From: Kingdonia uniflora
Lineage: Eukaryota; Streptophyta; Magnoliopsida; Ranunculales; Circaeasteraceae
Length of the DNA: 64,000 bases
NCBI GenBank assembly: GCA_014058105.1
Contig: JACGCM010002435.1
Span: 1-64,000, forward strand
Direction of reading: 5' to 3'
How positions within the stretch are numbered: the first letter of the stretch is position 1; each line of letters starts with the position of its first letter. The position numbers and the translations under genes are program-made. Shown piece after piece: positions 8,014 through 63,285 of the stretch. The notes under the pieces were generated by a model, which saw only the letters and a list, made by a program, of their open reading frames with translations, had not been told where the DNA came from and searched no databases.

Positions 8014-8073
8014 ACACCTGTACCAAGGTTGGCGATCAAGTACGTTTGTTTTTCAGATTTGTTCTCTGAAATT

Positions 8074-9324: not shown

Positions 9325-9363
9325 AGGGGGAAAGGAATTCGAATCTTGGGAAAGGAAATAAGA

Positions 9364-9717: not shown

Positions 9718-10206
9718 GGTGATGAAGCGAATGTAAATAGGGATGACAAAATGTATGTAACTGCATGAGTTTGAATAATTTGAAAGAAATTGTTGTTGAA
9801 TTGATCCTCAATTTTTGTGAATATTGTTTGTGACTATTATAAAATACAAATTTGAAAATGTTTGAAATTTTAGTATGAGAGCTTTGAAAATAACATCATT
9901 GTTGCTATAAATAGAAGAAGCAAGTATAGAAAAAGTAGGGAGCTTCAGATTTTGTCCCTTGTGTAAAAGCTGCGAAAACCCAATTGCGTGGAAGCGTGAG
10001 TCATCATGAGTGTGGTGAGGTCAGAAGGAGATTTGGAATAGCGAGATAAAAAAATATATATATAAGGCAATGGGAAATGATGGGAAAGCATTTTTACCGA
10101 AAGGGTGTAAGACATCTGATATGGATAGTGGAGGGGATGCCTCAGTTCTAAAACTGAGGACGACTCGTGCGAGGCTCAATAGCCGCTAGCAGTTAGAGAG
10201 CGAAAA
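9718..10206. other. Upstream region of antisense unit b, element D
   Basis: No coding frame supported. It contains a second TATA-like TATAAATA at 9906-9913 that I do not assign, an (AT)n run near 10050, and sequence leading to the b promoter. The equivalent regions are 52672-53398 in J and 61139-61822 in H. Confidence 0.4.
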
Positions 10207-10214
10207 TATAAATA
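10207..10214 (+). promoter_or_regulatory. TATA box of antisense unit b, element D
   Basis: TATAAATA about 415 bp upstream of the b start codon at 10622. H and J show TATATATA about 430 and 440 bp upstream of theirs. The long leader fits the 5' UTR intron seen in H and J. Confidence 0.6.
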
Positions 10215-10621
10215 CTGCTTCATCTTCATTAATGAAACGTTTCTCAACTTCTGAAAACTTGAAAATCAGCGAGAGAAGGAAGAAGAAAAACAAAAATAGG
10301 ACATAAACTTGTAAAGATTTAATAGACAGTGATTATCAGTTAAAGCATGTGAGAGTCGCTGAAAATAAGTCACGAAGGTGGTTGTACAGCAGCGTGGTGA
10401 GGGAAGGATTTTGCGCTGCTTCGGATTCGCATTCAGACAAAGAAGGTTAGTAAAAGATTTGTGATGCGTATATGTATGTTTGACGATCACGTTTTGTTTC
10501 TAGGTAATGTAGCAAATTACTATTTATAGTAATCTATAAAAATATGCCTGATATATGATATACGAAAGAATGTAAAAGATAATGATAGGTACCTAGACCT
10601 GTTTGTGTTTGTAGGTCGATT

Positions 10622-13600: not shown

Positions 13601-14472
13601 TGTCTGAAGTTGTAGTTGATCAACTAACTATAGCTTTACCTGCCACAGATTTTGAAATTTGGATAGTGCAGCGTAAGTGTCATGAGTTGAACGAGAGAAC
13701 GACACAATTGAAGATGGAATTGGTACTGGCCAATTCACGCGTTAGACATGCCGAGGCCGGAGAGCGCTAGAGGAAGAATAAGAATGATGCCAAGGTCTCC
13801 CTTGTGCAAGGAGATGTTTCCAATCTATCAGGCCGAATAAGAGAGCTGGAGGGGGATGTCGCTCGTATTTAAGGCCTTGTGCAAAAAGGAAACGAGAAGT
13901 TAAGGGAGTTTCAACGGAAGTTGGATGGTTCTCTTTCTAGGGAACATGGGTTAGAGTGGACTATGAGAGGTAAGGATATTTCGATGCAGCAGAAGATGAA
14001 ATGTTATAGAAGATTCTGGATGTGAAAGAACTGAAGAGGAAGATTAAAATACTTTGTGCTCAGGTGGCCGATTTAAAAACGATTAATCGAGCTGAATGAG
14101 TAAAATCTGACAAAAATCAGAGAAGAACATTGTTTTTATAGATTGGGTTGGTAGAGAAATAATTGGGCTAAAAGAGCGGTATGCGAGTTTGGAAGAACTC
14201 CTTCAGATGGCTAGAGTAAATTCCTCTGGGTCGGTTGTAACTGAGGCCTCGGACTCGGAATTGTTAAAGGCAGTTATTGCTTATTTTGTAGAGGAAGTAA
14301 AGAGGATTGAGGCAGAAAGAGATATCTTGTTCCACAGTTTGTCAGACAGGGATTTATTTGCAGAGCTGATGTAGATCGAGGAAATTGTATGCAGTCCATG
14401 GAAATGGATCTAGGCCCTCAACCAGCTAAATTAATAGAGCATGGCAGGAGTATTGTGACCGCTCGAGCTTGA
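10622..14472 (+). pseudogene. Antisense unit b of element D: PF04195-like protein with long coiled coil, multi-exon
   Basis: The start ATG follows GTTTGTAGG, matching the CTTCTGTAG splice acceptor before the b start in J and E. The N-terminal 110 residues are Ser-rich and acidic. A globular part at 11070-11420 has the pattern ACPVQMNGN, DVLQFYGVKNY and QPRLFDLN, matching H at 59808-60180. The pattern recalls the plant 'putative gypsy type transposon' family (PF04195). A single TAG at 11053 interrupts it. A basic linker with KKRRVELSKW (about 11870) and then heptad-rich coiled coil (12108-12545, 13241-13477, 14189-14374) follow. Introns are visible at 12007-12095 and probably 12546-12641 and 12746-13098. 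Frameshifts lie near 13200 and 14365; the end at TGA 14470-14472 is set by alignment with A. Function unknown. Confidence 0.65.
12007..12095 (+). other. Spliceosomal intron in antisense unit b of element D
   Basis: GTAGGTT at the left edge and TTTTTTATAG at the right edge bound 89 bp. Removing it joins frame ...EEIRKM to AARLMKKI without a shift. The interior is T-rich and contains stops. Confidence 0.7.
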
Positions 14473-25104: not shown

Positions 25105-25759
25105 TGTAGGAGCTTGATTTCGCAGTGCTCTACTAAACGAGAAGATGGTATAAATATCTTCGACTAGGGGTTTTATAAATATATAAGGCAATAATAATAA
25201 AAATTACTACACTAACATAATTGCGTAGAGTCCATGAATAGGGGTTCTCCACGACCTCTAGCAAGGATTTGAATAGAAGATGGTACAAATATTGATTAAG
25301 GTGATAGATCGAACTGAAAGAGGGTCACAAGGTACTCGAAGGTGATAATGGGAGGGTTTTCGGTAGGGCTTTTCTAATCCCTCCACCGTGTTCCCTATTT
25401 TCTACTTATAGGCGATAAAAAAGGGTGAGTCACCATGTGAGGTCAGATGACATATATATCCCTTGCGGTAGCTGTCTTACACGAGAAGTTGATTTTGACA
25501 CTGTAACTGTCTGGCGCCTTATTTCCACAGTTCTGTCTTGTGAGTTGTCTGTCAGGTGTGTCTACCTTTGACCACGCATTACTGTGGTTGAAGTCATTCT
25601 GGAGTTAATGTTGATCGACTGTGTTTGGCTCTTGCTTCGACTAACTTTGATGACACTTTCGATTGCCCGAGTATTTAATTAATCTTGGAAGAGTTCATAG
25701 AATTGATGTTGCCTTTGAGTATTCGACTAGTCTTGGAAGGCCACGAGTAGGCTACTATA
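25105..25759 (-). repeat. 3' LTR of element E
   Basis: 655 bp, plus-strand ends TGTAGGAGC...GGCTACTATA; pairs with 34782-35474. It is shorter than the partner mainly by a segment of about 40 bp near the right end. Confidence 0.88.
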
Positions 25760-25775
25760 TTCGCCTTTTCTCAGC
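25760..25775 (-). other. Polypurine tract of element E
   Basis: Minus strand GCTGAGAAAAGGCGAA precedes the 3' LTR. J and H have GCTGAGAGGGGGCGAA and GCTGAGAGGGGGCAAA at the same place, so the tract is shared by the subfamily. Confidence 0.75.
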
Positions 25776-25998
25776 TAGTGCCTCGAAAATGTTTGTAGAT
25801 GGTGCGTGCTGAGAAAAATTATTTAGTGTGGGAAGTTGGAAAGTTGATGGTGTGAATGTGGGTAGTTCCAAGATCATTAATGATGATGATGGGGATTAAA
25901 GAGGTAATTAATTTACCTTAAACATGATCAAAATAGGGACTATTTTAGGGGAAAATTTGTTCAAGTACTATTCATCTTCTTCCATTTTGAGTAAAGTA

Positions 25999-26330
25999 AT
26001 GGAACCAACCCTGAACACTCGCTAACTGCAGACAATGGAGGCTAGGAGAAGGAAACTCGAGTGGATGCCAAGGCTGTAGAAATGAGGTAAAATTTATTTG
26101 AGGACCGAGACCTGGGGGTGCCGATGCCAGACTTGGTAGAGCTCGAGCAAAGAGAAATGATTTACAGGGAGTCGTTCACTCACTGGTGGGGACTAATGCA
26201 ATGGTGCTTATCGAGCGTGACCATGCATTCCTATGTGCTGAGGATGCCGGTAGAGCAGCTGAAGAACACTAAGGACGCTGCCAGGACATGTCTATGGTAC
26301 TGTAAGAAGTGCCTAACGTGTAGATAGGGG
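25999..26330 (+). pseudogene. Antisense unit a1 of element E, degenerate
   Basis: Starts MEPTLNTR at ATG 25999, aligning with MDTTPNNRY of H. Frame changes are needed to follow it. MEARRRKLEW, then DLVELEQRE, then WWGLMQW correspond to the H patterns RRMGF, DMVELEPGE and LWGMMQW. Stops and at least two frameshifts break it. It runs opposite to E's pol. The TATA box expected upstream is not clear here. Confidence 0.6.
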
Positions 26331-27557
26331 AGGTTCTTTCAAGAATGTGGTTGGGGCTTGTAAATTGGCGAATTTGTATTTTGTTTTGCTATATTCCCGC
26401 CTATGTTTTTGGAATGAAATTAGTGTTATTCATCGAAGTGTGCCAATGTAGGGTAGTGATAGTAGATATCTTAGGTCGATAATAATTATAGGCGCGGTTA
26501 TACTTTGATATAAAAATTAAATGGCAACACTAATAAAAAATTTGGACTTCCTTTGAAGGGAAGATCATTGATCGAGTGTCGAAAGGTTAAAATTTGGTCG
26601 AGGGCGCGAATATGGTTGAGATTAGAAGATAACTTAGAGAACGTGGGTATGTAATACTTTGACTTCAAAGACTGACAGCCGTAATGGCAGAGTTTGATAG
26701 AGGGGATACTGTTCATAGGGCAATGTGTCGGTGCAGGCCATAATTATGAGTCCTCATATCTGTTAATGAGGGGGAGGCCACGTGTGGGTTATTTGAGGCT
26801 GATGTAGCAGGCTCGGGTAGGGTGTTAGAGGTCTATTTCTGAAGGAAAAAGGCTGTCGAAAGGTATGACCATGTACAGTCGTTGCTTTTAGATGGGATCA
26901 AGGTATCGAGAGAACTAGGAAAAAATTTCGAACCAGAGGAAGTGTGGCATGCACACATGTGAATAAGTAGGGGCAGTCTGGTAAAAGCACATAGTGCCTG
27001 AAAATGGGGGGGGAGTGGGAGTAGAAGTGGGGTAGTGGTATTTATGATGGCTGGGGAAACTGCGAGGCAATTTTGGGAATTATATTCATAGAGGGAAGAG
27101 AAAGAAAGACCAACACTATTGCCAATCAAATAGAGAGAGGCATAGGTAATAGAGAAAACCATCTTGTTATTGTAGAGAAATAAATAAGAGACGCCATTGA
27201 TGCTGATGGATTTCATCTTGGACACATTCAACTACATCAAATAATATATCTTCTGTTCCTTTGTAAGATATAACTGCTCTTTTCTTTCTTGGATATTGGG
27301 TGGGAGAGGGGATGAGTATTTTTTGTCATGCCAGTAATGGTGTAACAGGGGTGGGGCCTAGGAGACAAGGCTGGGAAGTCCGGCATAGAGTAATTGTGGA
27401 GTGGCATAAATTTGGGGAGTAGAGGAGATAGTATTTGAATCGTCGATCATAGAATGGTCGACGAGTAAGGGTGGGTAGGTAATAATATAATATGGACCGG
27501 AAACTTGATACTCTAATATATTGAGCTAATGTCAATCCTCTTCTTCTGTAGGGTATA
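26331..27557. other. Antisense promoter region of element E, unit a2 absent
   Basis: Parts align with J's spacer (GGCGCGGTTA near 26490) and with the b promoter of J (GGGGTAGTGG near 27030, GACGCCATTG near 27190). The TATA box is degraded to TTATATTCATAG near 27080. No a2 reading frame is found, so it seems deleted. CTTCTTCTGTAGG at 27541-27552 matches the b splice acceptor. Confidence 0.5.
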
Positions 27558-29607
27558 ATGCGTACCCGTTGAGCTTCGAGGATGAGGCTGGATGATGAGG
27601 GTAATGATGAAGTGAACGAGCCCAGTACAACAGACGTGCCTCTAGCTGTAGTAGAGCCCAATGTCAGTGCAATGAGGAGGAGTTGGCGTAGGGCTCAGAT
27701 AGTCGGAGAGAGTGACGAGGAAGATGAAGAAGATGAAGAGGGGGAAAGGGGTGGTGGGGCTGGAATCAAGAAGTCGGGGTATGATTGGGATGAAGGAGAA
27801 GGGGAAGAGGAAGAGAGTAAAAGTAGTGAAGATACAGATTAGGAGCAGACATATATGGGACAGGTCTCACCTTAGGAAAAGGCGAGGTTGGAGCGGTTTA
27901 TGGTAAATCATGGGCTGGGAGGGAAGGAGATTATTCTGGCGCCGTTAGAGGTTGAATATTCATTTATGGGTTTGCCTCATAAGGGAATCATGGTGTTCAG
28001 GGGGCAGATTTGATTAGGGACGCGGCTGCCCCTTCGAAGTCTGGTAAAGTAGGTGCTGAATTTATGGGACATGGCTCTGTGCCAAATGAGCAGCAATTTT
28101 TATGAGATGATGAGGGTGATCGAGGATATGAATGTTGAACTGAGGCAGGAAGGGTGGCTTTTAATTGAGTGGTTCGGTGTAGTATCATTTTACTCAAAGA
28201 AGGCGAATAAGAAGGTAGGGATGTATCACATCCAGTGCCACTCGGACAAACCGTGGTTATTTGACTTGTGTTCGACGGGGTGTGAGTGGGATAAAGACTT
28301 GCATGTTGTGAAGCGGCATTATTTGAATGCCCATGGGGAGGTAAAATTTTTGCTAAAGAATAGGTTGTTCAAACTAAGTAAGTTGATAGTCAAATTATGT
28401 TGTTGTGTTGGTCTAAATTTAATGTAACTATCAATTCACTATTTTGCATATCCCACCAATAATAGACAAAAGCACCCGATGACCTATATCGACGACCTTA
28501 TCAACGAGAGTGAGGATTGGATGAATAATGTATTTTAGAAGTTGGGTATTTTAAGAAAAGGACAAAAAAAGACGGACACGTTGTTGAGAGACGTACCAGT
28601 TGCTCTTGGTCTACCGAGGAGGAGAAAAAAGACAGGTAGGTGATATGGATTACAACAATCTAACGTGAAAATCTAGTTTCTTACCAAGAGCTCGTCAAGG
28701 GGTACCCATATTGATTCGGTCGAGCGTACCTGAGGTTGTTATAGAAGTAGCGCAGCAGGCCCAAAAAGGGATGGAAAAGCCACGGCCGAAGGGTCGACCA
28801 CTCAGTTTATGGAGTCAACTAGACGAAAGAGGAGTCATGAGCAGATGGAAGAAAGAGATGACCTAGCTGAAGCTAGGCAGCTCACATCCGAACAGGAGGA
28901 GGATGTTCAAGTAACGGTAGAGTCGATGATAAATCTGTGTACAACAAACCCAGAGGAAGCAAGATGTCATGCTGAGAAGGTTTGGCGTCAGGTAAGTTTG
29001 TTTTAATTTTGAAATTAAATTTATATTTTAAGAACTGCTGAATAGTCGAGGTATTTAGGATTTGTGCAGATGCATGCTTGGATGATTTCATTTACCAGGG
29101 CGCAGAAGGTATCAAGTGAGAGGCTATAGGAAGCGAGGGACTATGAGCTCACGAAGGGGACCATTCTGTCTCTGGAGACCCAAATCAGAGAGTCAGAGTA
29201 AAAGCAGTTGCACATTTATTCTTATGCGGCAAGAGAGAACCAGGAGGTCGTCACAAGTTGTGACGTGAAGGTGGCAGTGCTGGAAGTGAAGGTAGCAGGC
29301 CCAGAGGAGCAACATCTAAATAATCATGCGTGCTTCCAGGAAATGTTTGATCCCTAATGTGAAGTGACTTCAACATTGAAGAAGTTTGTGGATAGACTTG
29401 GATATGACCCCGTAACTTTTGAAATCTGCCCCCCCTACCCCTGAGGAGGTGCCCGTCGTCGAGGACGTTACAAGCATGGAGGGGATAAAAGTTGACCTTG
29501 CGATCGAAGGTGTTTGCGCCAAAAATACGGAGGCCGCGTCTATAGTAGAAAACCCTGGTGGTAAAAAAGTTACTACACCTGTGGAAGATGCGGGGAACTC
29601 TATTTGA
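27558..29607 (+). pseudogene. Antisense unit b of element E: PF04195-like, multi-exon, degenerate
   Basis: Starts ATG 27558 with MRTR then TGA (CGA in J). Residues after that are acidic (DEEDEEDEEGE). The globular domain at 28053-28375 reads MALCQMSSNFYEMMRV, EWFGVVSFYSKKANKK and DKPWLFDLCSTG, closely matching H. A donor GTAAGT at 28378 is followed by exon sequence DWMNN...KLGI. A coiled-coil start lies at 28809-28991, an intron at 28992-29069, and the tail has LKKFVDRLGYDPVTFE near 29370-29420. The end at 29607 is chosen from the open C-terminal frame. Function unknown. Confidence 0.65.
28992..29069 (+). other. Spliceosomal intron in antisense unit b of element E
   Basis: GTAAGTTTG at the left and TTTGTGCAG at the right, 78 bp, T-rich. 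It sits at the same place in the protein as the introns at 50667-50753 (J) and about 59132-59213 (H). Confidence 0.75.
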
Positions 29608-29779
29608 ATTGAATGTGTTAAGAAAAGGAAAAACATGGTTTACTCTATTTAAATATAATAAACTTTTTGGTTGGTATGTAGGCTGAAACAATTCCAGAAA
29701 TTTTGGTTTAAACAAATTAATATATACTGGTATTTTGTGTGATTGAAAGTTGAATGAATACTGGAGAATGTTGAAAACT

Positions 29780-30440
29780 GCAGGTTGGGCTCGAAATAAA
29801 GCAAGATGTGGTCGGCCCCAATACATTCCTGAGTGTTCGGTCTGTCGACCATTCATGTTACGTGGGAGTGCTCAAATTGAAACCTTAAAAAACTTTGAGG
29901 TTACCCCTAAGTATCAGTCAGGTCGAAGGGTTGACTTGGTACTTAGGTTTGACAAAATCAAGAAGTTCACACGACTTCTAGGTTGCCCCCAAGTATTTTT
30001 ATCCGCGGGTTTGAGCCTATACGAAGTAAAATGTGGTCGTCCCCAATGCACCCCCGAGTGTCCGGTCTGTCTACCATTTATGCCACTCGAGAGTGCTCAA
30101 ATTGAAATCTTGAAAACCTCTGAGGTTGATCCCAAGTATCAGTTAGATCGAAAGGTTGACTGGATACTTAGTTTTCACCAAATCAAGAAGTTCACAGGAC
30201 TTTGAGGTCTCTCCTAGGTATTTTTATCCACAGGTTTGAGCCTACATGAAGTAGAATGTGGTTGGCCCCAATGCACTCCCAAGTCTCCGGTCTGTTGACC
30301 ATTCATGCCACTAGGGAGTGCTCAAATTGGAACCTTGAAAAACTTTGAGGTTACCCACAAGTATCAGTCAGGTCGAAGAGTTGACTGGATACTTAAGTTT
30401 GAGAAAATCAAGAAGTTTACAGGATTTATGAGATGATCCA
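29780..30440. repeat. Tandem repeats after pol of element E
   Basis: Three units of about 225 bp starting near 29780, 30005 and 30230. The shared phrases are GGTTTGAGCCTA, CCCCAATGCA and AAGTATCAGTCAGGTCGAA. They are the reverse complement of the arrays in J and H, with an extra segment of about 30 bp per unit. Confidence 0.85.
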
Positions 30441-38585: not shown

Positions 38586-38587
38586 TT

Positions 38588-43141: not shown

Positions 43142-43143
43142 TT

Positions 43144-48923: not shown

Positions 48924-49760
48924 AAATTTCTTGGTTAAGCCAGAGTATCATGTCAACCCTTCGACCCGACTAATATTTGGGGGCAACCTTAAAAAATTTC
49001 AAACCTCCAATTTAGAGCAAACTCGTGGGGCAAGGATGGTCGAAAGACCGGACCCCCGGGAATGCATTGGGGGCAAACACGTTTTACTTTGATCAGACCC
49101 CAAATTGCTGAAGTTCAGCAAATTTCTTGGTTAAGCCTGAGTATCCTGTCAACCCTTTGACCCGACTGATACTTGGGGGCAACCTTGAAATTTTTTAAGC
49201 TTCCAATATTCGAGCAAACTCGAGTGAGCACGAATGGTCGAATGACAAGACCCTCGGGAATGCGTTGGTAGTGAACACATTCTAATTTGATCAGGCCCAA
49301 GCCATCGAAGTCCAATTAATTTCTTGGTTAAGCCTGAGTATCATGTCAACCATTCGACTCGACTAATACATGGGGGCGACCTTGAAAATTTTCAAGCTTC
49401 TAACATTCAATAAAAATTGAGGGGCACGAATGATCGAAAGACCGAACCCTCAGGAATGCGTTGGCAGTGAACATGTCTTAGTTCCCTGTGGCTCAGGCCT
49501 TCGAAGTCCTATAAATTTCCTAGTTTCCTCTAAGTATCATGTTACCCTCGGCCCGACTGATACTTGGGGGCGACCTCAAAAATTTTCAAACTCCCAGTAT
49601 TCGAGCAAACTCGTGGGGAACGAATGGCCGAGAGACCGAACCCTCGAGAATGCATTGGGGGCGACCACGTCTTACTTCGTTGTGGTTTAGGCCTTCAAAG
49701 TCCAGTAAATCTCTTGGTTCTACCCAAGCGTCATAACCATCTCGAAGCTCTTCAAAGTTC
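48924..49760. repeat. Tandem repeats after pol of element J
   Basis: Four units with a period of about 196 bp plus a partial fifth. The phrase AATTTCTTGGTT starts near 48924, 49120, 49317, 49514 and 49707. Other unit marks are CGACTGATACTTGGGGGC and GAATGCATTGGGGGC. It is homologous to the H array and, inverted, to the E array. Confidence 0.92.
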
Positions 49761-50120
49761 GATCACTCTGCAGTCATTCTATACTTGCAACATATACAGA
49801 AACAAGTATCCAAGAATATTAACAATTTTACTACATGAAAGACACTTCAACACATCATATATCAAAGACTCAAGTTTAGCCCAAAACATATATGAAGCAT
49901 CTAGTACAGCAATTCAATACAATTCAAGTTGACGCAAATCTGTTTCAGTACAGTACAGCAATTCAAATCAACCACAAGCTCAAAGATCAAATACAAAGAA
50001 AGCCCAACATTGTTCAAATATTACAACCCAACAGAAAAATAAGAAAAATCTGCATGGCACCCCAGTACAATACCTCATATTAGAGAGGTTGTTGCTTCTC
50101 CCCCAGTAGGTTCTTCAGTG
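49761..50120. other. Spacer between repeats and antisense b of element J
   Basis: AT-rich, A-heavy on the plus strand. No gene seen. It would hold the 3' end of the antisense b transcript. Confidence 0.45.
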
Positions 50121-50666
50121 CTAACACCCCCCAGCACCTCTAGTAAAAGATTTCGACCCTGCACCATCGACGCCCACATCAGTTGCAAATCCAGCAGCAG
50201 TACCTTCGATCACAGGAACCTCCACGCCACCTCTGATACTTCCATTTGCAATATCTACCTCTCTGCACTCTATCTGCACAGCATCTTCAACAATAGGATC
50301 TTGGGTAATAGGGAAGCGTTGCAGAGTTTCAGGATCAATCCCCATATCCTCCATGAACTGCTTCATCCTAACATTATCCAAAACTTCATAATCAAATTAC
50401 CCTTAAAAACGCTCCGTCAGTGCTTTCTTTTCTTTCTCCTTCTCAGCAAGCTTCAACCTCAATACCTGCTCATGGTTAAAACGTTGACCCTTCAATCTCT
50501 TCTTGAATGCATCATAAATAGCTGTAAGATCTCACTTCAAAGTTATATTCTCTGACACCATCGACGCTTTAGTCCCTCGAGCAAGTTCCAGACTGTCAGC
50601 CGCCTCCTGCAACTTCCTCTTTAACACTTTTACCGCCTTACTAAAAGACTGCACCCAAGCATCCGT

Positions 50667-50753
50667 CTGCTAGAATATTCGAGCCGTCAATACCTCTCGA
50701 AGAATCAAGCACTTACGAAAATGTCAGAATCTTACAAACAAATAGATACTTAC
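50667..50753 (-). other. Intron 3 of antisense b, element J
   Basis: Minus strand donor GAG|GTAAGTATCT and acceptor ATATTCTAGCAG|A, 87 bp. Same protein position as in E (28992-29069) and H (about 59132-59213). Confidence 0.78.
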
Positions 50754-51298
50754 CTCGTACATACTCCCCTTTATCTGTTTCAACGTCTCGTCTGGGTCAT
50801 CGGTACAGAGTTCTATCATCGAAGCAGTCACAGCTAGAGCCTAATCCTCTCGCTTTGCATCATCATCCCCCAGCGCCATGTGCCTTTTGCGTTGAGTAAT
50901 CTTCGCCAGTTGTACCCTGGGAGAATCAAGAATAATTGTGCCCTTCGCTTTCTTAGCCTGGGTGGATGCCTACTTCGGCCTTTATCTCGAAGCACCACTA
51001 GCTACTTCGGGTATTGTCGCTCCCTGCTTCGACGCCCGTTGCACCTTCGGAATATACTTTACCTTCCTTGCCAAATAATCCTCCTCCATTCCTTCGACTA
51101 CCATTGAAAAATATTTTCCTCCCTTCTTCTTTGATGGCTTCGACGTAATGGGCACGCTTCGAAGCAGGGAATCAGACTTCTTCAGCCTCTTCCTCTTGAT
51201 ACCAAGACTCTTGAAAACAAAACTTTCTCACTCCTCATCTGGGTCAATTAGGGCGTTAATATAATCCCTAGGATTCGCCCAAGTCCAGTTTTGAGGAC

Positions 51299-51371
51299 CT
51301 GCAAAAAAAATAGAAATACAATCACCAGTTTATTTGAACAATAGATCAAAACTCTACGATAAGAAGCTTAC
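51299..51371 (-). other. Intron 2 of antisense b, element J
   Basis: Minus strand donor CCAA|GTAAGCTTC and acceptor TTTTTTTTTGCAG|GTCC, 73 bp. H has TACTGCAG|GTCC at the same place (near 59770), and E has a donor GTAAGTTG at 28378. Confidence 0.82.
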
Positions 51372-52232
51372 TTGGATTATAGACTTTATGCTGTAACCTA
51401 TAAGGGTCCTCCCCTTTGACATTCTCATAATTCCCTTGTACTATAACAAAATCTCTATTCCACCCTCGACCCGTCGAATACAGATCAAACAACCAGGACT
51501 TGTCTGCATGGCACTGGGTTTATTAGGTGCCCACATTCTGATGCGCCTTCCTCAAATAGAATAATACCACATCATACCACTCAATTAAACACCTTCCTTC
51601 ACTCATCAATTTTGCATTCATACCCTCGATTACAATCATCATCTCATAAAAGTTCCCATTCCTCTGAAAAGGGGCAACTTCCTAGAAGTTTAACACCTCC
51701 TTCACCAGCCTTCGAAGGGGCAGTCGCATTCCCAGTCAAATTTGGCCTTTATACGCCATGATACCTTCTCGAGGCTTCAATTTCAAACTGTACTCTGACC
51801 CCGCAGAATAAAATATTACCCCTACCTTCAACATCCCATGTTTTGCTACAAATCGATCTAGCCTCTACTTCTCTCTCTCCGGAACTAAACCAGTAGCCTC
51901 ATCTAACTCAGTCGAATCCTCATCATGATCACTTTGCACCCCCTTGCCCCTTTCACCACCCGAAGGCTCAGCCTGACCTTTACCTCTCTTTCTCTGTCCT
52001 CCCCCCATCTCCTCCTCACAACTACCCTCATTCACTACAGTCTTACGATGCTTACTACTTGAACCCCAGTCTCAGGAACTACCACTGCCAGTGGGATATC
52101 CTTTGCTATGACTAGATCTTCTATATCGCTGCCCTTATCCATCGGACCACGAAGAGACACACTAGCCTCATTTTCTTTGACCTCCTCGTCTATCAACCTT
52201 TGTCACGAAGCTCGACGGGTACGCATCTTAGC

Positions 52233-52513
52233 CTACAGAAGAAGAGGCACGTAATTAGATTGATACATTCGACTATTACGTGTTAATAACCCATTTTCAT
52301 CTACCCTCTCCAACAGATACAAATACAATCAAAAAATTAACCCTAATCCCAGTCTTACCATCAATACCCTAAGAATCCTAAATGAGCTAAACCCCTGACA
52401 TATGATTTCCCCCTGTACTCGAACATATCCACAACACTACAAACCTAGAAGACTCTACATACAAATATAGAAGGAAAATCTAAACAAAAATAGACAGAGA
52501 TCAATTGATATAC
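52233..52513 (-). other. 5' UTR intron of antisense b, element J
   Basis: Minus strand donor ACACAG|GTATATC and acceptor CTTCTTCTGTAG|GC, ending 6 bp before the start codon. H has GCAG|GTATGCC (60975) and CTTCTTCTGTAAG. E and D keep the acceptor. Confidence 0.65.
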
Positions 52514-52663
52514 CTGTGTTAGTAGAAATTCAATCGAAACAGCAAGCCAATCGGTCCTTAGCAACAACCCGGTAACCTCTCTCAAGCTTCACGAAACAAT
52601 GGCGTACGTTCCCTTCCACTCTCTCTCTATTTTTTCTGTGAATAGTACGTTTGTTATCTCTCC

Positions 52664-52671
52664 TATATATA
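52664..52671 (-). promoter_or_regulatory. TATA box of antisense unit b, element J
   Basis: TATATATA within GAGGAGGTATATATAG, an exact phrase also found in H at 61131-61138. It lies about 440 bp upstream of the start codon, leaving room for the 5' UTR intron. Confidence 0.72.
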
Positions 52672-53398
52672 CCTCCTCGGAATGCCAAAAACTGCCTTGA
52701 TTTCCAAACAACTATTATTTGCCACTGCCCCACTACCCCTGCTTTTCAGTTGACATGTGTTTTAACAATTTTGCCCATCATTAACCTCACGTGTGAATCG
52801 CACGCTTACTTTCACTTCGCTTTAAACTCAAAATAACTCGAAGCTTCTGATCCTCACTTGAAGCTGTACAATCAAATCTCCACATCAAATTAACCTTTTC
52901 CATAAAATGAGGAAACATCATGATAACCTGCACGACACACTACCCCAGGAACCAGTACCGATTTGACAAACTAGCTGTCTGGGCTGTCAGTTTGTCCAGT
53001 CAAATCCAATAGACCTTCGATACACCCACTTCTCGAACACGTGTAATCGACTATATCGTGTCTCAAACATTCGTCTGCAGACAACCTCACATTCGATTTC
53101 AAAATATATTGTGTCTGGTGCAAACTGCTTAGAATTTTACTTTGACAGTTCAGAATATTACTTCGGCAGTTCAGAATTTTACTTTGACAGCTCAAAATTT
53201 TACTTCTATTGTTCAGAGTTCTACTTCAACAGTTTAGAATTTTACTTACACAGAGTGCAGAAATATACTTCGACAGTTATCTTATCATCTCCCAATTTCA
53301 GTCAATAGATATCAAAACGGTATAAATTAACCGAAAAAACCAAATATCCTTCCATACCATACCATCCTATACAAATACCCCAACAGTCAAAGAAGCCC
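52672..53398. other. Spacer between antisense b promoter and a2, element J
   Basis: No gene supported. It holds the 21-bp minisatellite (53131-53256). Part aligns with H 61139-61700 (CTGCCT.GATTTC, CACGTGTG.G). Confidence 0.5.
53131..53256. repeat. 21-bp minisatellite in element J
   Basis: Six copies of a 21-bp unit like AGAATTTTACTTTGACAGTT. Because 21 is a multiple of three, the array opens artificial frames on both strands (EFYFDSS repeats on plus). H shows only a single related unit near 61620-61690. Confidence 0.88.
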
Positions 53399-53744
53399 TT
53401 ATTTCTCGTCGGGACATTTCTTCTCGCCCCCGGCCTCAGCAGCAGCATCTTCCTGGTCCATCATCTCCTCAGCAAACGGCTCCAGCAGGGACAACTGGTG
53501 ACCGAGAAATGGTCACACTATCTGCAATACCCCCCACCAATACGCGATGGGCATTCCAGCAATGGGATTCCTGGGCTCCGCAACAAACAAGTCCAGCATC
53601 TCCGAGTCCATGTCTTGATCTCCGACAAACCTCCGTCTCAATTCCAACATCTTCTCTCGTACACGATGAGCTTTTGCTCCCACTTGGTCCTGATTCTTTG
53701 GATTGGAAGCATTATTTTTTGCTTTGGGAAGAAGAGGCAGACAC
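53399..53744 (-). pseudogene. Antisense unit a2 of element J, start codon lost
   Basis: The start ATG of H is GTG here (codon at 53742-53744, VSASSS versus MSASSS). Following frames, MLELRRRFVGDQ and GMPIAYWWGY match TLELKQWYFGD and GMPYEYCWRV of H. A frameshift early on and stops later break it. The end TAA at 53399-53401 follows MMDQEDAAAE. A TATA box lies upstream at 53795-53802. Confidence 0.65.
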
Positions 53745-53794
53745 TATACTCAGAGACGAAGGAACAAACGTATGCAATTCTCTCAGAAACAACC

Positions 53795-53802
53795 TATTTA
53801 TA
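53795..53802 (-). promoter_or_regulatory. TATA box of antisense unit a2, element J
   Basis: TATAAATA on the minus strand in AGTATAAATAGG, about 50 bp upstream of the a2 start. D has TATAAATA at the same place. Confidence 0.62.
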
Positions 53803-54319
53803 CTAAAAATTAGATACATTTAACCCTCCCTAATCAAAAGTCATATTTAGTACAGTCTTCAGTTCTTCTCCTTGAAAACTCAACAGTCCAACCTCTACAT
53901 CTTCCCAGACATAACCGTTTCATTGGAACGCGTATTCAACCTTCTTTCCCGAGGACTTACAGTCGAACCATCACTAGCCTCAAAACATCGGCCCCTTTAA
54001 TCGAATACCGACCCTTTTCCTCAACAAACACATTTATAATTCGAAGTCAATTTCAACTAGAAGGTAACCGTTTCTGCATGTTAACATTTGAAGATATATG
54101 TTCGATACCGCGCCAACAATCTAATCGCATACATGGTTTACCATATACAAACATAAACTTTTAGTAAAGTTTTTTCTTATTGCATCACTTCAAAGTACAA
54201 AAATAGAGGAGACCTCCTAGTACAATCATACCAAAATCAACAGATATCAACAAAACAAAATCATAAACCTTTTAATGATAGACCTACAAAAAACCCATCA
54301 CCACCACCTTGCCAGCACT
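53803..54319. other. Spacer between antisense a2 and a1, element J
   Basis: No reading frame supported. It aligns in parts with H 62199-62706 (for example the phrase near 54110-54180 on TTTAGTAAAGTTTT.TTCTTAT). Confidence 0.5.
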
Positions 54320-54660
54320 TTAAGAAGAACCCTCCCTATTTTCAGATGGGCCAGCTCCACTCATCGAGCCTTGCTCCTCCAACTGCTCTTCTGCCTGAAC
54401 GAGACATTCAGCCAAAGCCGTCATGTAGAGATAGCATCCTTCAGCAGTAGCAAAATGAAATCCTCATCTGCTCCCAAAAGTAAGCATAAGACTCCCTATT
54501 GATGGGCTCTCCAAGCTCAAACTCCCCCAGGTCCGGTAGGTCCAAATCAAGCTCATGGTGACCGATGAACTTTAACTTCAATTCAGCAGTCTTCTGCCCT
54601 AATTGAGATCTCGGCCAAACCCATCCTTTTCAGATAGCGGGTATTGGGCGTGGTGTCCAT
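54320..54660 (-). pseudogene. Antisense unit a1 of element J, frameshifted
   Basis: Start ATG 54660 (MDTTPNTRYLKRMG) aligns residue by residue with a1 of H. A stop and frameshifts follow after about 25 codons. The C-terminal part LAECLVQAEEQLEEQG and GPSENREGSS returns to frame and ends at TAA 54320-54322. The length of 113 codons equals that in H within a few codons. Confidence 0.72.
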
Positions 54661-54741
54661 TACGTTTTTTTAAGAAATTCAAAGAAAGGAGAGGACAGTG
54701 CAGCAGAAGAAAACTCTACTGCCTTGCCACCTTCAAACCCA

Positions 54742-54749
54742 TATTTATA
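54742..54749 (-). promoter_or_regulatory. TATA box of antisense unit a1, element J
   Basis: TATAAATA in GCTTATAAATATGGG, about 85 bp upstream of the a1 start. H has GATATAAATATGGC at the same position. Confidence 0.68.
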
Positions 54750-54927
54750 AGCCTCATCCAACCCATTTATTATTTCATAACAAACAACACAACATAATTA
54801 CCCTCTTTTATTACCCCTCCTAGAATTCCAATATGCAACAGTCAACTTTCCAACAATCAACTTTTTAACTCCTAATAACCAACAATCTTTCTCAGCAAAT
54901 GTATCTACACCTATTTTCGTGACCCAT

Positions 54928-54943
54928 GCTGAGAGGGGGCGAA
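54928..54943 (+). other. Polypurine tract of element J
   Basis: GCTGAGAGGGGGCGAA directly before the 3' LTR. Confidence 0.85.
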
Positions 54944-55664
54944 TATAGTAGCCTACTCACAGCCTTCTACCCCAGTTAAACACTCGAAGGCCACCTCGAC
55001 ACCTACTCAAACATCTCGAAGCCATCCAAACATTATGCGAAGACGAAGCTTCGACTCTGAAGAAAGCCTTGAAGTCGAACACCACATCAACACAAGAAAT
55101 ATTTTGACAATATCCAAACCTGGTCGAAGTGTAACAAGACAGACAGCCAGCTCAATAGACAGGACGGTAGAACTTTTGGTCCTTGAAGCTACAGTGACAG
55201 ACTCAACAACTGTTATAGTGTCAGACCACAGAGACAGACCTAACAACTGCTACAGTGACAGACCCAACATTTCTAGCGTAAATACCATCTTCGAGATACC
55301 CACTCGATATCCGGGTGGTACACTTGTAATGTGACCTAACCTTGGTTACTCAGCCCATCCTATGCTCTATAAATAAGAGAGATAGGGAACCAAGGAGGGG
55401 TTACAGATCTCTCCCTTATGCCCTTACTGTTTATCATCGACCACCCTGTAAAATACTTAGTAGTCGAACCTTCGACTACTCGACAATAATATAAATTCTC
55501 TTAAAAATCCTTATCAGAGGTCGTGGAGCATCACATTCTAGGCCTCCACGCAAGTATATTGTCAATAGACCCCTTATGATATAGATTATATAGTTAAACC
55601 CATTTGATTAAAGATAAAAAACTGTGGTGTAAGAGCTGACTTCCCTCTGTACGAAGTTCCTACA
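54944..55664 (+). repeat. 3' LTR of element J
   Basis: 721 bp from TATAGTAGCC to TTCCTACA, pairing with 42418-43141. A few bases of the usual GGCCCCTACA end are missing. A TATA box is at 55368-55375. Confidence 0.92.
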
Positions 55665-57573: not shown

Positions 57574-57621
57574 TAATCAATTAACATATTTGCTTATGAA
57601 CTTTGTCTCCTATTTTCCAGC

Positions 57622-58470
57622 AAATTTCTTGGTCCAACCTAAGTATCCTGTCAACCCTTCGACCCGACTGACACTTGGGGGTGGCCCTAAAATTTTTCAA
57701 GTCTCTAATTTCGAGTAAACTCGAGGGGCACGAACGGTTGACAGACTGGACCCTCAAAAATGCATTGGGGCGAACACGTTCTACTCCGATCAGGCTCAGA
57801 TTGAACTCCAATGAATTTCTTGGTTTACCCAAAGTATCATGTCAGCCCTTCGACCTGACTGATACTTGGGGGCGATCTTGAAAATTTTCAAGTTTCCAAT
57901 TTTGAGCAAAACTCGAGGGGAATGAATGGCCGACAGACCGGACCCTCGAGAATGTATTGGTGGCGACCACGTTCTACTTTGATCAGACTCAGGCCTTCGA
58001 AGTTCAGTGAATTTCTTGGTTTACCCTAAGTATCATGTCGACCCTTCGACGCGACTGATACATGGGGGCGACCTTAAAATTTTTCAAGTCTCCAATTTCG
58101 AGCAAACTCGTGGGGCACGAATGGTCGACAGACCGGACCCTCGAAAATGCATTAGGGGCAACCACGCTCTACTTCCATCAAGCTCAGGCTTTCGAAGTCC
58201 AGAAAATTTCTTGGTTTACCCTAAGTATCATATCAACCCTTCGACCCGACTGATAGTTCGGGGTGACCTTGAAAATTTTCAAGTCTCCAATATTTGAGCA
58301 AACTCGAGGGGCACGAATGGTCGAGAAACCGGACCCTCAAGAATGCATTGAGGGCGACCGCGTACTACTTTGACCAATCTCAGGCCTTTGAAGTACAATA
58401 AAATCTTTGGTCCCACCCAAGTGTCACGATCATCTCTTGACTGATACTCGAGGAACCATCTCGAAGCTTT
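57622..58470. repeat. Tandem repeats after pol of element H
   Basis: Four units of about 192-197 bp plus a partial fifth, marked by AATTTCTTGGT near 57622, 57813, 58009, 58203 and 58401. Homologous to the J array. Confidence 0.92.
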
Positions 58471-58739: not shown

Positions 58740-60701
58740 CTCATATCGGAGTGGCTACAGGATCATTGGTTCTGGGCAAGCGTGTAAAGTAATAGGATCA
58801 TACCCCAAATCTTTGATAAACTCCTTGAGCCTTACATTAGTCTCGCATTCATCATCAAACTGCCCTTGGATGGTCTCCTTCTATTCTGCAATAGCCCTAT
58901 CTTACTCAACTAGTTTCACCTTCAGAACTTGCGTATGAGTGCACCGTTGAGCTTCGAGCCTCCCCTCATTTTTATCTCTGATAGTCCCTTGATCTCACTT
59001 TAAAACTCTAATTTCATAAACCAGCGATGCTTCGGTACCTTGAGCAAGCTCCAGATTGTCAATCGCCTGCTTTAACTGCTGTACTGCTACCTTTTGAGCC
59101 TTATTAAAAGCATGTACCCAAGCATCTGTCTGCTAGAATATTCGAGCCATTAGTATCTCTCGAAGCATGTTGCACTTAAAAAATTTTAGAATTTCACAGA
59201 AATTAAGCAATTACCAGATACATACTTTGCTTCATCTGCCTTGTAGCTTTGTCTTGATCAGTGCCACCGAGTGTCGCCATCGAAGCAGTCGTAGCTCGAG
59301 CATGCTCCTCCAGTTCGGACGCGGTTAGGTCTTCATCCATATCTTCTGCATCATCCTCCCCTAGTACTCTACGCCTCTATCGCTGAGGTCCCTTGGGCTG
59401 CTGTACCCTTGTAGATTTAGGAAAGACCCTTCCTATCCCTTTATCTGCCTGCATTAACGTCTGCTTCGACACCTGCCTTAAAACTTCATGAGCTACTTCA
59501 TGTACCGGCCCTTCCTGCTTCGGCACCTGCTTCCCCTTGGGAACATAATTCACCTTCCTCGCTAACTTCACCATCACCAATCTTTCGCCTCCCCTCTTTT
59601 ATTATGGCTTTGGCATAACGGGTATGTTTCAAAGCAGAGAATCTGTCCTTTTCTGCCTCTTCCATTTAATACCCAGTTTCCTAAATATAAAGTTTACCCA
59701 CTCCTCGTCTGGGTTGTTCAACGCGTAGAAATAATCCCTCGGATTTGTCCAAGTCAGGTTACTAGGACCTGCAGTAAAAATAGAAACATATTTATCAGTC
59801 TATTCAATCAATACGTCAGAAAACCTTTGACAGACAAGTTACATTGATTATAGACGTTATGCTGTAACTTATAAGGATCCTCTCCTTCGACTTTCTCATA
59901 GTTACCCAGTATTACAGCCAAATCTTTATTCCACACTCGACCCACCGAGCAAAGATCAAACAGCCAGGGCTTATCTGTGTGAAACTGGATGTGACAAGTA
60001 CTCGCCTTCTGAATGGCTTTCTTGGAGTAGAACGAGATTAAATCGTACCACTCAATTATGTTTTTCCCCTCACCTCGCAGCTTTACATTCATGCCCTTAA
60101 TTACCTTCATCATTTTATAAAAATTCTCATTCATCTAGCACGGGGCCACTTCCCAAAAGTTCAGCACCTCCTTCACCAGCCTTCGCAAGGGTAGCTACTT
60201 TCCTAGACAAATTTGGCCTCTATATGCCATAATGCCATCTCGAGATTTTGATGTGAAGGCATACCCTGACCCCGCAATATATATTATCACCCCTACCTTC
60301 GGCAGCTCAAATTTGGCCACAAATAGATCTGGCCTCAGCTTCTCTCTAGCCGAGACAGAACCATCGACCACCTCTGGATCAGTAAATTCCTTGTTATGAT
60401 CACTTTGCTCCCTCTCTCTCTTTTCGATACCTAAAGGCTCAGCGCTACCTACGCGTCCATCTCTCTATCACCTCCCTCCATCTCTTCCTCATCCCTCTCC
60501 TTGGTTACTCGTATCTTGCGATATTTACTACTTGAAGCACCCAATTTCAGGAACTACCATCCCTAATGTGATATCTTTTGCAATATCTAATTCTTCTACG
60601 TTACTACTCTTACCAATCGATGCACGACTAGATATGCTAGCCTCATTTTCTTCGATCTCCTCGCCTATTAGCCTCAGTCTCAAAGATCTATGGGTATGCA
60701 T
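58740..60701 (-). pseudogene. Antisense unit b of element H: PF04195-like multi-exon protein
   Basis: Start ATG 60701 (MHTHRSLRLRLIGEEIEENE). After acidic sequence the globular domain covers about 60330-59830: VKEVLNFWEVAPC.MNENF, KGMNVKLRGEGKNIIEWYDL, FYSKKA and DKPWLFDLCSVGRVW, a 108-codon open stretch at 59808-60134. An intron ends TACTGCAG|GTCC near 59770; the next exon reads NLTWTNPRDYFYALNNP and KLGIKWKRQKR. A basic segment with KQVPKQ and coiled coil follow; another intron is at about 59132-59213. The tail FDDECETNVRLKEFIKDLGYDP is near 58800-58860. Some stops are present (for example near 60130 and 60190). Function unknown. Confidence 0.7.
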
Positions 60702-60706
60702 CTTAT

Positions 60707-60975
60707 CTTACAGAAGAAGAGGCACGCAAATCAGATTGATATATTTAACTATTAGGTGTCAATAACTTATTTTAACCTACCCTCTCCAACTAAGACTATC
60801 ATTGCAGAATGTTCGATCATAATCCCTGTTATACCGTCAATACCCTCAGATACATGTTTTCCCTCCATCCTCGGTCAAATATCACAACTACAAACCCTTG
60901 CAGCCTCTGCCCTAATATATGCTCCAAATACAGAAACAGAAGACGAAGAAACAAGACAGAAGTAAGACGGCATAC
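60707..60975 (-). other. Probable 5' UTR intron of antisense b, element H
   Basis: Minus strand donor AAGCAG|GTATGCC and acceptor CTTCTTCTGTAAG close to the start codon, the same arrangement and size as in J (52233-52513). Confidence 0.6.
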
Positions 60976-61130
60976 CTGCTTGAGCAGAGTATCTTTCCTT
61001 CCTTTCAGTAATTCAGACAATCCCAGAGCAATTTCTGAGCTCTCTTGAACAATGGCGTACATTCTCTTTCTCACACTCCCTGGTTTTTCTATAAGTGAGT
61101 AACCGGGAATAGTAACTATGCTCTTGCCAC

Positions 61131-61138
61131 TATATATA
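61131..61138 (-). promoter_or_regulatory. TATA box of antisense unit b, element H
   Basis: TATATATA in GAGGAGGTATATATAG, identical to the J phrase, about 430 bp upstream of the start codon. Confidence 0.72.
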
Positions 61139-61822
61139 CCTCCTCAGAATACCAAAAAACTGCCTCAATTTCAAAAATTGCTATCATTAGCACTACCCCA
61201 CTACCCCTACTATTCGGTTAAGATTTGCTTTGTCGAATTTACCCTCCATTACCCCACGTGTGCGCCTCACGCGCACATTCACACAATTTTATATACATAA
61301 AGCAACTCGAACCTTCTGATCCCCACTCGAAGCTGTCAAATCATATCCTTGCATCAAATCAGCCTTTCTCCGTAATCTAAGGAAATATCATGATGCCTGT
61401 AGGACACTCTGTCCTAGGCTCCGTACAGTTTCTGACATGCCAGCTGTTTGGAATGTCAGCTTTACCAATCGACCTTCAAAATACTTTCCTCTCATCCTCG
61501 AATAATTGTTTACATCACCTCTCAAGCATTCGCCCTGAGATAGCTTGATATTCGAATTCAAAACATGCCAATAATGCGTGTCTCGAGCAAACTGTTTTCG
61601 AGCCTAAATTTCCTTCGAGTATTATATTTCTCGTACTTACACAAATACAGTTCAGTATCTCATAGTTTGACAGTCATCTCATAAATTGTGAAGTTCATTC
61701 GGGCTGACGCCTGTACACCGAAATACAAAAGAAAATAATCAGGAATAAAAAATAAACAACAAACACTCCTGCCATCCTATTTTACCACAATAAAGTTGCC
61801 CCTATTTACAGACGGGACAGTT
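61139..61822. other. Spacer between antisense b promoter and a2, element H
   Basis: No gene supported. Homologous in parts to J 52672-53398 without the minisatellite expansion. Confidence 0.5.
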
Positions 61823-62140
61823 CTATGAAGACTCAACCTCGCCATCTTCCTTGTCCACCACCTCCTCAGTCAAAGACTCCAGCAAGGCCAACCGGTCGTC
61901 GGGAAGCAGGCCCATCATTTGAAACACCCTCCAACAGTACTCATAGGGCATCCCACTAATGGGTTCCCCTGACTTCACTTTAAATAAATCTTGCAAAACA
62001 CAATCCAAGCCTCGATCACCAAAATACCACTGCTTCAGTTCGAGTGTTTTCACCCGAATACGAAGGACCTTTGCCGCCACCCGATTCTGGTACTTGGTGT
62101 TAGAACCGCTTCCATTTCTATGGGACGAAGACGCAGACAT
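61823..62140 (-). CDS. Antisense unit a2 of element H, intact 105-residue protein
   Basis: Open from ATG 62140 (MSASSSHRNGSGS) to TGA 61823-61825. A Ser-rich start is followed by a basic helix (RVAAKVLRIRVKTLELKQWY), a central SGEPISGMPYEYCWRVFQMM and an acidic end (EEVVDKEDGEVE). It is clearly related to a1 (62707-63030), sharing ELK..+FG, GEPI.G, Y.W and a final acidic run. No signal peptide or membrane segment is visible. It is on the strand opposite to pol. D (9364) and J (53744) carry broken copies. I recognise no family; expression is not shown. Confidence 0.6.
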   Translation of the reverse strand: MSASSSHRNGSGSNTKYQNRVAAKVLRIRVKTLELKQWYFGDRGLDCVLQDLFKVKSGEPISGMPYEYCWRVFQMMGLLPDDRLALLESLTEEVVDKEDGEVESS

Positions 62141-62190
62141 TTTGCTCGGACAAGATGGAACAGATGTGCGAAGTTCTCATAAAAATACCC

Positions 62191-62198
62191 TACTAATA
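62191..62198 (-). promoter_or_regulatory. Degraded TATA box of antisense unit a2, element H
   Basis: TATTAGTA on the minus strand at the place of TATAAATA in J (53795-53802). It is two changes from that box, so activity is doubtful. Confidence 0.35.
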
Positions 62199-62706
62199 CT
62201 TTAAAGTAGGCACATTTAAACCCTCCTTAATCAGAATAACATTTATCACAGTCTTCAAGCGTTTCCCTCGGAATCTTAACAGTCAAACAAATTCAACATC
62301 CCAGACTCAACCGTTTCATCAGCATGCACCTTACACCTATTCCCGAGGTTTTTTGCAGTCGCCACATCTGCAGTTTCAAATATTAACCAATTTCTTCGAT
62401 ACTTGCTTGTCATGTCGAAGAACTTTTACCATCGAAAATAGTCATTTCTACTATTTACCCTTCGAAGTTGAATGCCCGATTCCGCGCCTACAATCTATAA
62501 GGCTACCATATTTACCAGATACAAAAACACATAATTTTAGTAAAGTATTGTTCTTATTCCATTACGTCGATTACAAAAAAGGGGACAGTAAGGAAGAAGA
62601 GAAAAATTTATAGATATCAGCTAAAACAATAACATAAACAAAAATCTTCAAATACAACATTATAAAAAATAACAAAACCTATCACCACCACCGCCCTTCC
62701 ACCACC
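62199..62706. other. Spacer between antisense a2 and a1, element H
   Basis: No reading frame I can support. Homologous to J 53803-54319. Confidence 0.5.
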
Positions 62707-63030
62707 TTATGAAGAACCCACCCTATTTTTAGATGGGCCAGATCCTCCTGTCGTGCCTTGCCCCACCACCAACTGATCTTCTTCCTGAACAAGATGCTCG
62801 GCTAAAGCCGACCAGAAGAGATAGCGTTCTTCAGCGGCTGTGAAGTTCCACTGCATCATTCCCCACAAGTACGCATTGGATTGGCCATTGATCGGCTCTC
62901 CAGGTTCTAACTCCACCATGTCCTTGTACCCGAAGAACTTCAGTTTCAGTTCAACCGTTTTTCGCTCTATGCGACAGTCTCTGACGAAACCCATCCTTCT
63001 CTGATAACGATTGTTGGGAGTGGTGTCCAT
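62707..63030 (-). CDS. Antisense unit a1 of element H, intact 107-residue protein
   Basis: Open from ATG 63030 (MDTTPNNRYQRRMGF) to the stop at 62707-62709. The order is a basic N-terminus, a helical ELKLKFFGYKDMVELE segment, GEPINGQSNAYLWGMMQW, an acidic AEHLVQEED and a Gly/Ser-rich end. It aligns with a1 in J (54320-54660), E (25999) and D (8074), and with a2 as a paralogue. The start is fixed by the conserved MDTTPN and by the TATA box 70-75 bp upstream. No known domain. Role unknown. Confidence 0.62.
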   Translation of the reverse strand: MDTTPNNRYQRRMGFVRDCRIERKTVELKLKFFGYKDMVELEPGEPINGQSNAYLWGMMQWNFTAAEERYLFWSALAEHLVQEEDQLVVGQGTTGGSGPSKNRVGSS

Positions 63031-63098
63031 TATGTTTCCATGGAATGTAGAGGAAGAGATTGAAGATGGGGATTACAGTGTTACCCGCACATAAGCCA

Positions 63099-63106
63099 TA
63101 TTTATA
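63099..63106 (-). promoter_or_regulatory. TATA box of antisense unit a1, element H
   Basis: TATAAATA in GATATAAATATGGC on the minus strand, at the same distance from the start codon as in J. Confidence 0.68.
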
Positions 63107-63269
63107 TCTTCATTAGCAGCATTTATTACTCTGTAATCACCACAACTTCGTAATTACCCACCTTTATTACCATTCCTCGGATATCTAATATGCCTAAGTC
63201 AACCGTTCGACTTCCAACAACCAACAGTTTTTCTCAGCAAATGCCTTTACACCTATTTTCGAGACTCTT

Positions 63270-63285
63270 GCTGAGAGGGGGCAAA
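63270..63285 (+). other. Polypurine tract of element H
   Basis: GCTGAGAGGGGGCAAA directly before the 3' LTR, one base different from J. Confidence 0.87.

Follow-up and report, generated by a model that had tools for sequence, protein, structure and literature searches.

The DNA analysed here (the window: 64,000 nucleotides, positions 1 to 64,000 of contig JACGCM010002435.1 in the Kingdonia uniflora assembly GCA_014058105.1) is a nest of old plant long terminal repeat (LTR) retrotransposons. One of them, element H, carries three genes on the strand opposite to pol and between pol and the 3' LTR: two small genes, a1 and a2, and a split gene, b. Comparable sets stand in three further elements, J, E and D. 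An earlier note, made from the letters alone, had listed the sets of H, J and D and read them as a conserved module of separately transcribed accessory genes, each behind its own TATA-like box. We find that a1, a2 and b encode proteins on which purifying selection acted during the active life of the elements, and that three promoters are not a general rule among the copies. Read from the 3' LTR inwards, the set in H comprises the following features.

63230..63285, minus strand: conserved block at the edge of the 3' LTR, the upstream part of the a1 promoter region, with a polypurine tract (read on the plus strand) and an inverted repeat CTCAGCA...TGCTGAG around CGAAAATAGGTGTA
63099..63106, minus strand: TATA-like box of a1, TATAAATA, identical to J at 8 of 8 bases (flanks 63 of 107)
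62707..63030, minus strand: a1, gene for a small antisense protein of 107 amino acids; open reading frame (ORF) in H, also marked by its ratio of non-synonymous to synonymous change (dN/dS)
62553..62558, minus strand: AATAAG, possible poly(A) signal of a1 by consensus only, common to J and not seen in E
62331..62345, minus strand: another copy, ahead of a2, of the element found upstream of a1, a site of the word CGRRAATAGGTGTAA
62191..62198, minus strand: box of a2, decayed to TATTAGTA, where J has TATAAATA; 6 of 8 bases match J (flanks 82 of 120)
61823..62140, minus strand: a2, gene for a small antisense protein of 105 amino acids, paralogue of a1; ORF open in H, likewise marked by its dN/dS
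61131..61138, minus strand: TATA-like box of b, TATATATA, identical to J at 8 of 8 bases (flanks 66 of 98)
60708..60975, minus strand: leader intron of b; its donor is CAG/GTAT in H and J, a site that E does not show
59843..60701, minus strand: coding exon of b from the ATG, with an acidic N-terminal part and a TRP28-like core; in H, stops and a shift of frame interrupt it
59769..59842, minus strand: second intron of b, with donor GTAAG in J and E (GTAAC in H) and acceptor TGCAG in H and J (TGCAT in E)
59215..59768, minus strand: exon 3 of b, with dN/dS of 0.39 between H and J
59130..59214, minus strand: third intron of b, with donor GGTAAGT in J and E (GGTAATT in H) and acceptor GCAG in H, J and E
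58757..59129 (end approximate), minus strand: last exon of b, charged and coiled-coil-like by eye, with z of 3.0 to 4.0 in three copy pairs

Selection on the antisense genes

Between H and J, dN/dS is 0.36 for a1, 0.31 for a2 and 0.21 for the core of b, permutations reached the observed difference in 1, 1 and 0 of 2000 trials, and the shifted frames of the antisense genes give 0.66 to 1.03. The earlier note had proposed this ratio as a check, with values near 1 counting against its claim, and none of the three lies near 1. The gag-pol genes of the same two copies give 0.26 for gag, 0.38 for protease, 0.25 for reverse transcriptase, 0.41 for RNase H, 0.16 for a second RNase H and 0.19 for integrase, with shifted frames at 0.58 to 2.21. 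The antisense values fall within the gag-pol range, and these frames are real genes on which selection acted. Both copies have decayed since insertion, a phase that accounts for about 0.17 of the distance between them (half of each LTR distance, summed), so selection before insertion was presumably stronger than the measured values.

The exons of b extend this comparison to E. Over three copy pairs, dN/dS is about 0.11 to 0.21 in the core exon and 0.29 to 0.47 in the last exon; exon 3, compared between H and J, has shifted frames at 0.70 and 0.76, and the N-terminal part gives 0.43 for H and J (shifted frames 0.55 and 0.58) and 0.28 for H and E. Saturated synonymous change leaves no value for exon 3 with E (two pairs), for the N-terminal part between J and E or for a1 with E (two pairs), and codon counts for a2 against E (25 to 31 codons) were set aside, as E is without a2. 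A six-frame permutation scan of H, J and E places the strongest synonymous excess on the antisense strand in b, with frames that switch between exons and z up to 4.9; with H as the reference, a1 reaches 2.3 and a2 2.6, each in its own frame and in a single window.

The two small genes are paralogues. Searched against the window, H a1 and H a2 find one another at E-values of 4e-10 to 5e-10, and each also recovers its counterpart in J, where a2 begins with GTG in place of the ATG of H and a1 is frameshifted. Together, the dN/dS values and this paralogy support the earlier suggestion of accessory protein genes kept by selection.

Most splice sites of b are shared among the copies. The acceptor of the leader intron, CTTCTTCTGTAG, stands six bases ahead of the ATG in J and E and carries one change in H (decayed to GTAA); the favoured reading frame switches across the second intron; and inspection of D by eye shows an acceptor like it and a GTAAG donor. 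As it is on the antisense strand that these conserved sites make sense for splicing, and the genomic RNA would keep the introns, they point to a separate, spliced antisense transcript of b.

Copies of the set and signals ahead of its genes

The elements that hold the four sets, and the further features that bear on them, are these.

37843 to the window's end, pol on the strand opposite to the antisense genes: element H, interrupted by the inserted J
42421-55658: element J, nested within H
About 25100-35400, orientation opposite to H and J: element E
7143-25094, orientation opposite to H and J: element D
57618..58426, no strand assigned: tandem repeats, each about 195 bases long, that separate pol from the antisense set of H
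49700..54946, minus strand: the set of J, with a1, a2 and b, broken
25730..29790, plus strand: the set of E, an a1 remnant and b; a fourth copy, absent from the earlier note's list, with no matching boxes
7754..14300, plus strand: the set of D, two a-like units (8074 and 9364) and a b gene from about 10669

All four elements are old, as their LTR pairs differ by 0.15 in H, 0.19 in J, 0.21 in E and 0.16 in D; the identical LTRs that mark potentially recently active Retand elements (the PRARE criterion) are not seen in any of them, LTR identity being 82 to 87%. J sits inside H, yet its LTRs are 83% identical and those of H 87%. Immediately 3' of the 5' LTR, H, E and D share TTTGGCGCCGT (38560-38620, 34800-34850 and 24440-24480), a common primer binding site. 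Within D, two direct-repeat blocks at 19536-22770 (91% and 87% identical) suggest a further short nested element, and positions 1-7100 hold a D-like element (about 74%) that is truncated by the window's left edge, so that its antisense region would fall outside.

A profile of the a family built from H and J, run over the window, finds E a1 at an E-value of 1e-12. The two units of D, treated as single tests, match the family above chance, if weakly: with the E row in the profile, each unit was equalled by no segment among 4000 drawn at random from the window and by one shuffle among 2000; without that row, each was equalled by 4 of the 4000 segments, and the shuffles that scored as high numbered 6 and 4 in 2000. 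Assigning them to a1 or a2 proved impossible, the a1-model score of the second unit being 14.0 bits with the E row and -0.3 without. The b gene of D, by its sequence, is clearly a relative, a piece of 130 amino acids scoring 47.0 bits against the H/E/J model, a level that none among 3000 random segments or among 2000 shuffles attained.

The nine boxes named in the earlier note for H, J and D all lie on the antisense strand where it had placed them, and the a2 box of H is decayed, as it had said. Those of a1, a2 and b in J read TATAAATA, TATAAATA and TATATATA (54742, 53795 and 52664), and those of D TATATAAATA at 8004, TATAAATA at 9317 and TATAAATA at 10207. Its claim that order and spacing recur holds for H and J as to order, a1 then a2 then b; as to spacing it fails for D, the distances from box to box being 908 and 1060 in H, 947 and 1131 in J, and 1313 and 890 in D. 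Between H and J the boxes of a1 and b are unchanged and that of a2 is not; of the 1582 eight-base windows in the non-coding zones, 95 match at every base. The b box falls in a 16-base run of H/J identity, the longest in these zones. About 117 bases ahead of it in both H (61255-61262) and J (52788-52795) lies CACACGTG, with a G-box core; considered as a G-box-like element of b, it was given no weight, as it occurs three times in the window but elsewhere in E.

In five of the seven a-type units (H a1, J a1, J a2 and both D units, but not H a2 or E a1), the motif TATAWAW occurs within 160 bases upstream, and these boxes stand 47 to 88 bases ahead of the start, the start positions used for J a1, J a2 and E a1 being about one base off. 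The motif is found on the antisense strand 7 times in H (2.4 expected), 4 times in J (1.7), 12 times in D (4.1, overlapping matches counted) and once in E (1.9). Only two of the seven in H are the boxes, and the excess in D means that a box near each of its units says little.

Further signals lie upstream of the small genes. The block at the edge of the 3' LTR contains three of the four longest H/J identity runs of the non-coding zones (14 bases each), and its CGAAAATAGGTGTAA resembles a stretch ahead of a2. This likeness between the loop of the inverted repeat and the upstream stretch of H a2 hints at a promoter role beyond priming alone. An inverted repeat of this kind is kept beside the polypurine tract in H (63230-63285), J (54895-54946) and E (25760-25820). 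Allowing up to two mismatches, CGRRAATAGGTGTAA has three sites in the window, ahead of H a1, H a2 and J a1, where 0.39 are expected, a count that is partly circular because the pattern was derived from the two H sites. The upstream regions of H a1 and H a2 align with a score of 22 (maximum of 60 shuffles, 17) and those of E a1 and H a2 with 18 (shuffle maximum 15). Given the similarity between the two H regions and the CGRRAATAGGTGTAA sites, promoter and gene may have been duplicated together. A single promoter type for all units was rejected, the region upstream of b being unlike those of a1 and a2 in H and unlike that of a1 in J; between J a2 and J b, the upstream score is 17 (shuffle maximum 15).

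Lineage and relatives of the antisense genes

The elements are most likely members of the Retand lineage of the Tat group. In J, pol runs from protease (weak Pfam matches, below the cut-off) through RNase H and a second RNase H to integrase. Pfam places RT_RNaseH in 46482-47192, RVT_3/RNase_H in 47099-47350 and the integrase domain rve in 48134-48376, the last at 28.7 bits, under its cut-off of 32.6; a reverse transcriptase piece upstream of RNase H is recognised by eye and goes unmatched in Pfam. The Ogre/Retand branch of Tat is marked by an additional RNase H placed between the first one and integrase (PMC6317226), and J has this arrangement. Antisense ORFs between pol and the 3' LTR, the Retand trait, are present in H, J, E and D, which is to say in all four sets seen in the window. 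Ogre elements carry an extra ORF ahead of gag; the gag-like frame of J begins near 43418, shortly after the 5' LTR, with a weak Pfam gag match (E-value 0.006, below the cut-off).

We read b as a putative diverged TRP28-like protein, not filed in the Pfam TRP28 family. Its position in the element, its antisense strand, its charged, coiled-coil-like tail and, in part, the spacing of its residues fit this reading. Six residues are listed as conserved in TRP28 in Vicient 2025 (G21, P25, L34, P46, N47 and F55; PMC11963269); by eye, four of the six (G, P, L and N) are equally spaced in H, J and E, and two of the six in D. With X at stops, the b core as read in E, D, J and H gave no PF04195 (TRP28) row at E-values up to 10, in searches whose filters drop most weak matches. 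The H reading of b gave a poxvirus RNA polymerase subunit (E-value 3e-5, 24.4 bits, cut-off 25) that is missing in the other three readings, and we dismissed it as chance. An alignment of b drew 124 candidates from a protein collection, none of which scored, a collection that is apparently poor in plant sequence and so yields no evidence of absence in plants.

For the small genes, Pfam returned no family, the one sub-threshold row for a2 (E-value 0.28) being attributable to chance. The same protein collection held one candidate relative of a2, not scored at E-values up to 10, and viral contigs held none, in collections apparently poor in plant sequence and with a1 not searched alone; against phages, a2 gave short matches to three records at an E-value of 9. 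Rfam had no match over 58400-64000.

Antisense accessory genes after pol are already established in Retand, Grande and RIRE2. The earlier note was correct that antisense ORFs are known in Tat elements, and understated it: a Grande gene with its own promoter and the TRP28 genes of Retand had already been published (PMC7264820, PMC11963269). In Vicient 2025 (PMC11963269), antisense TRP28 genes are reported for 97% of recent Retand clusters, with predicted DNA binding. They resemble the set described here in standing antisense between pol and the 3' LTR, in a long region with tandem repeats after pol, and some clusters hold Smc-like antisense ORFs, which we count as a further likeness; they match Pfam TRP28, whereas b does not. 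That survey took ORFs of at least 600 bases, and shorter ones only with TRP28, so genes of the size of a1 and a2 would escape it. Introns or promoters of antisense genes are not described in the text available ('splic' and 'promoter' appear only in reference titles, 'intron' not at all).

Other comparisons are by description and draw on the same two papers. Grande gene23 of maize is antisense, in a long 3' internal region, with its own promoter, as we propose here, and a nuclear product (PMC7264820, PMC11963269); it is described as one gene, against three units here. Retand ORF4 of Silene, weakly and ubiquitously expressed, and the antisense ORFs of rice RIRE2 also lie between pol and the 3' LTR (PMC7264820), and the available part of that source, unlike our set, makes no mention of separate small paralogous genes with their own boxes. 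HBZ and APH-2 of the human T-lymphotropic viruses HTLV-1 and HTLV-2 are antisense accessory proteins made independently of the main LTR transcript (PMC11963269, PMC7264820), from a promoter that, for HTLV, lies inside the 3' LTR (PMC7264820); the promoters proposed here are internal. Neither small antisense genes that come in pairs and have boxes of their own nor antisense genes with introns are described in the accessible text of the open-access literature searched, a limited basis on which the paired small genes look new.

Transcription and possible role

We consider it probable that these Tat-group, most likely Retand, elements carry an accessory gene set antisense to gag-pol that had its own promoters. 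In integrated copies, RNA polymerase II would start at an internal TATA promoter belonging to each unit, a step that the sequence supports well, though indirectly. The mRNAs of a1 and a2 would be short and unspliced, whereas that of b would be spliced. The introns of b would not be removed from the genomic RNA, which is the other strand, and would therefore survive each transposition cycle. With less support, the products may be trans-acting nuclear regulators of the element's own expression or integration, b as a TRP28-like, coiled-coil, probably DNA-binding protein and a1 and a2 as small helical partners. This function is suggested by Grande gene23 (PMC7264820) and by the DNA binding predicted for TRP28 (PMC11963269). 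Expression independent of the LTR promoter would allow action before or without genomic transcription, as with retroviral accessory genes.

Several results weigh against this explanation. Single antisense ORFs of H, D and E gave no Pfam row for TRP28 (PF04195) at E-values up to 1, and structure models are poor, with a mean predicted local distance difference test score of 62 for a2 (helical) and 35 for a piece of b, so that no specific fold is supported. Three of the sets, those of J, E and D, are broken, and so is H b; the a1 and a2 ORFs of H are open. The profile scan of the window found no a2 in E and ranked the two D units, at E-values of 4.6 and 11, under two unrelated places. E has no TATAWAW within 160 bases upstream of a1 or within 600 bases upstream of the b start, its single site lying far from the gene starts. 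The other four a1/a2 upstream pairings among H, J and E (two of six passed), and that of the two D units, stayed within the shuffles. H and J are related, and their agreement is not independent. With J as the reference, the six-frame scan gives at most 2.0 for a1 and 0.9 for a2, and the best of six frames in non-coding windows also reaches z of about 2.5, which makes the scan alone weak for the small genes; in exon 3 of b with E, shifted frames are low too (0.40 to 0.91). With E lacking a2 and boxes, the a2 box of H lost and the spacing of D unmatched, the conserved three-promoter module put forward in the earlier note is not a general rule.

What survives of its idea of separately transcribed units is a series of indirect signs, namely the boxes, the upstream element shared within H, the introns of b and the AATAAG of H and J. 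A bolder form, which we offer tentatively and think somewhat doubtful, is a three-promoter antisense set of two promoter-plus-gene cassettes, encoding an undescribed family of small helical proteins, together with the spliced b; such a set would run a joint regulatory programme independent of the LTR and would make these complex retroelements. Rather unlikely, though worth weighing beside it, is a single promoter and a single antisense transcript, in which only the a1 or the b box is real, a2 lies on the shared transcript or is a dying duplicate, and the boxes arise partly by chance in AT-rich DNA. In its favour are the decay of the H a2 box while its ORF stays open, E with neither box nor a2, and the 12 TATAWAW sites on the antisense strand of D. 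Against it, one upstream element recurs before both small genes of H, J keeps an undamaged a2 box, and the b box sits within the longest conserved non-coding run.

Selection on the amino acid sequence bears on two further alternatives. If the antisense RNA itself were functional, controlling the element through double-stranded or small RNA with coding secondary, a role of the kind raised for antisense transcripts of plant elements (PMC7264820), dN/dS within the gag-pol range would not be predicted, and we regard this as very unlikely. Least credible is that the ORFs are chance or the relics of an unrelated insertion, functionless in the element: most ORFs of the sets are broken, a1 and a2 have no Pfam family and a2 has no database relative in collections apparently poor in plant sequence, but selection acts in the same frame on the b core in three copy pairs and on a1 and a2 in H and J, and the sets are present in both subfamilies.

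For work on what antisense genes do in plant Tat elements, the accessory set that we favour, with its two small paralogous genes, a spliced gene and probable promoters of its own, offers concrete proteins, start sites and splice junctions. It also suggests that surveys of long ORFs overlook small and intron-bearing antisense genes, and introns in antisense genes provide a useful marker for separate antisense transcripts.

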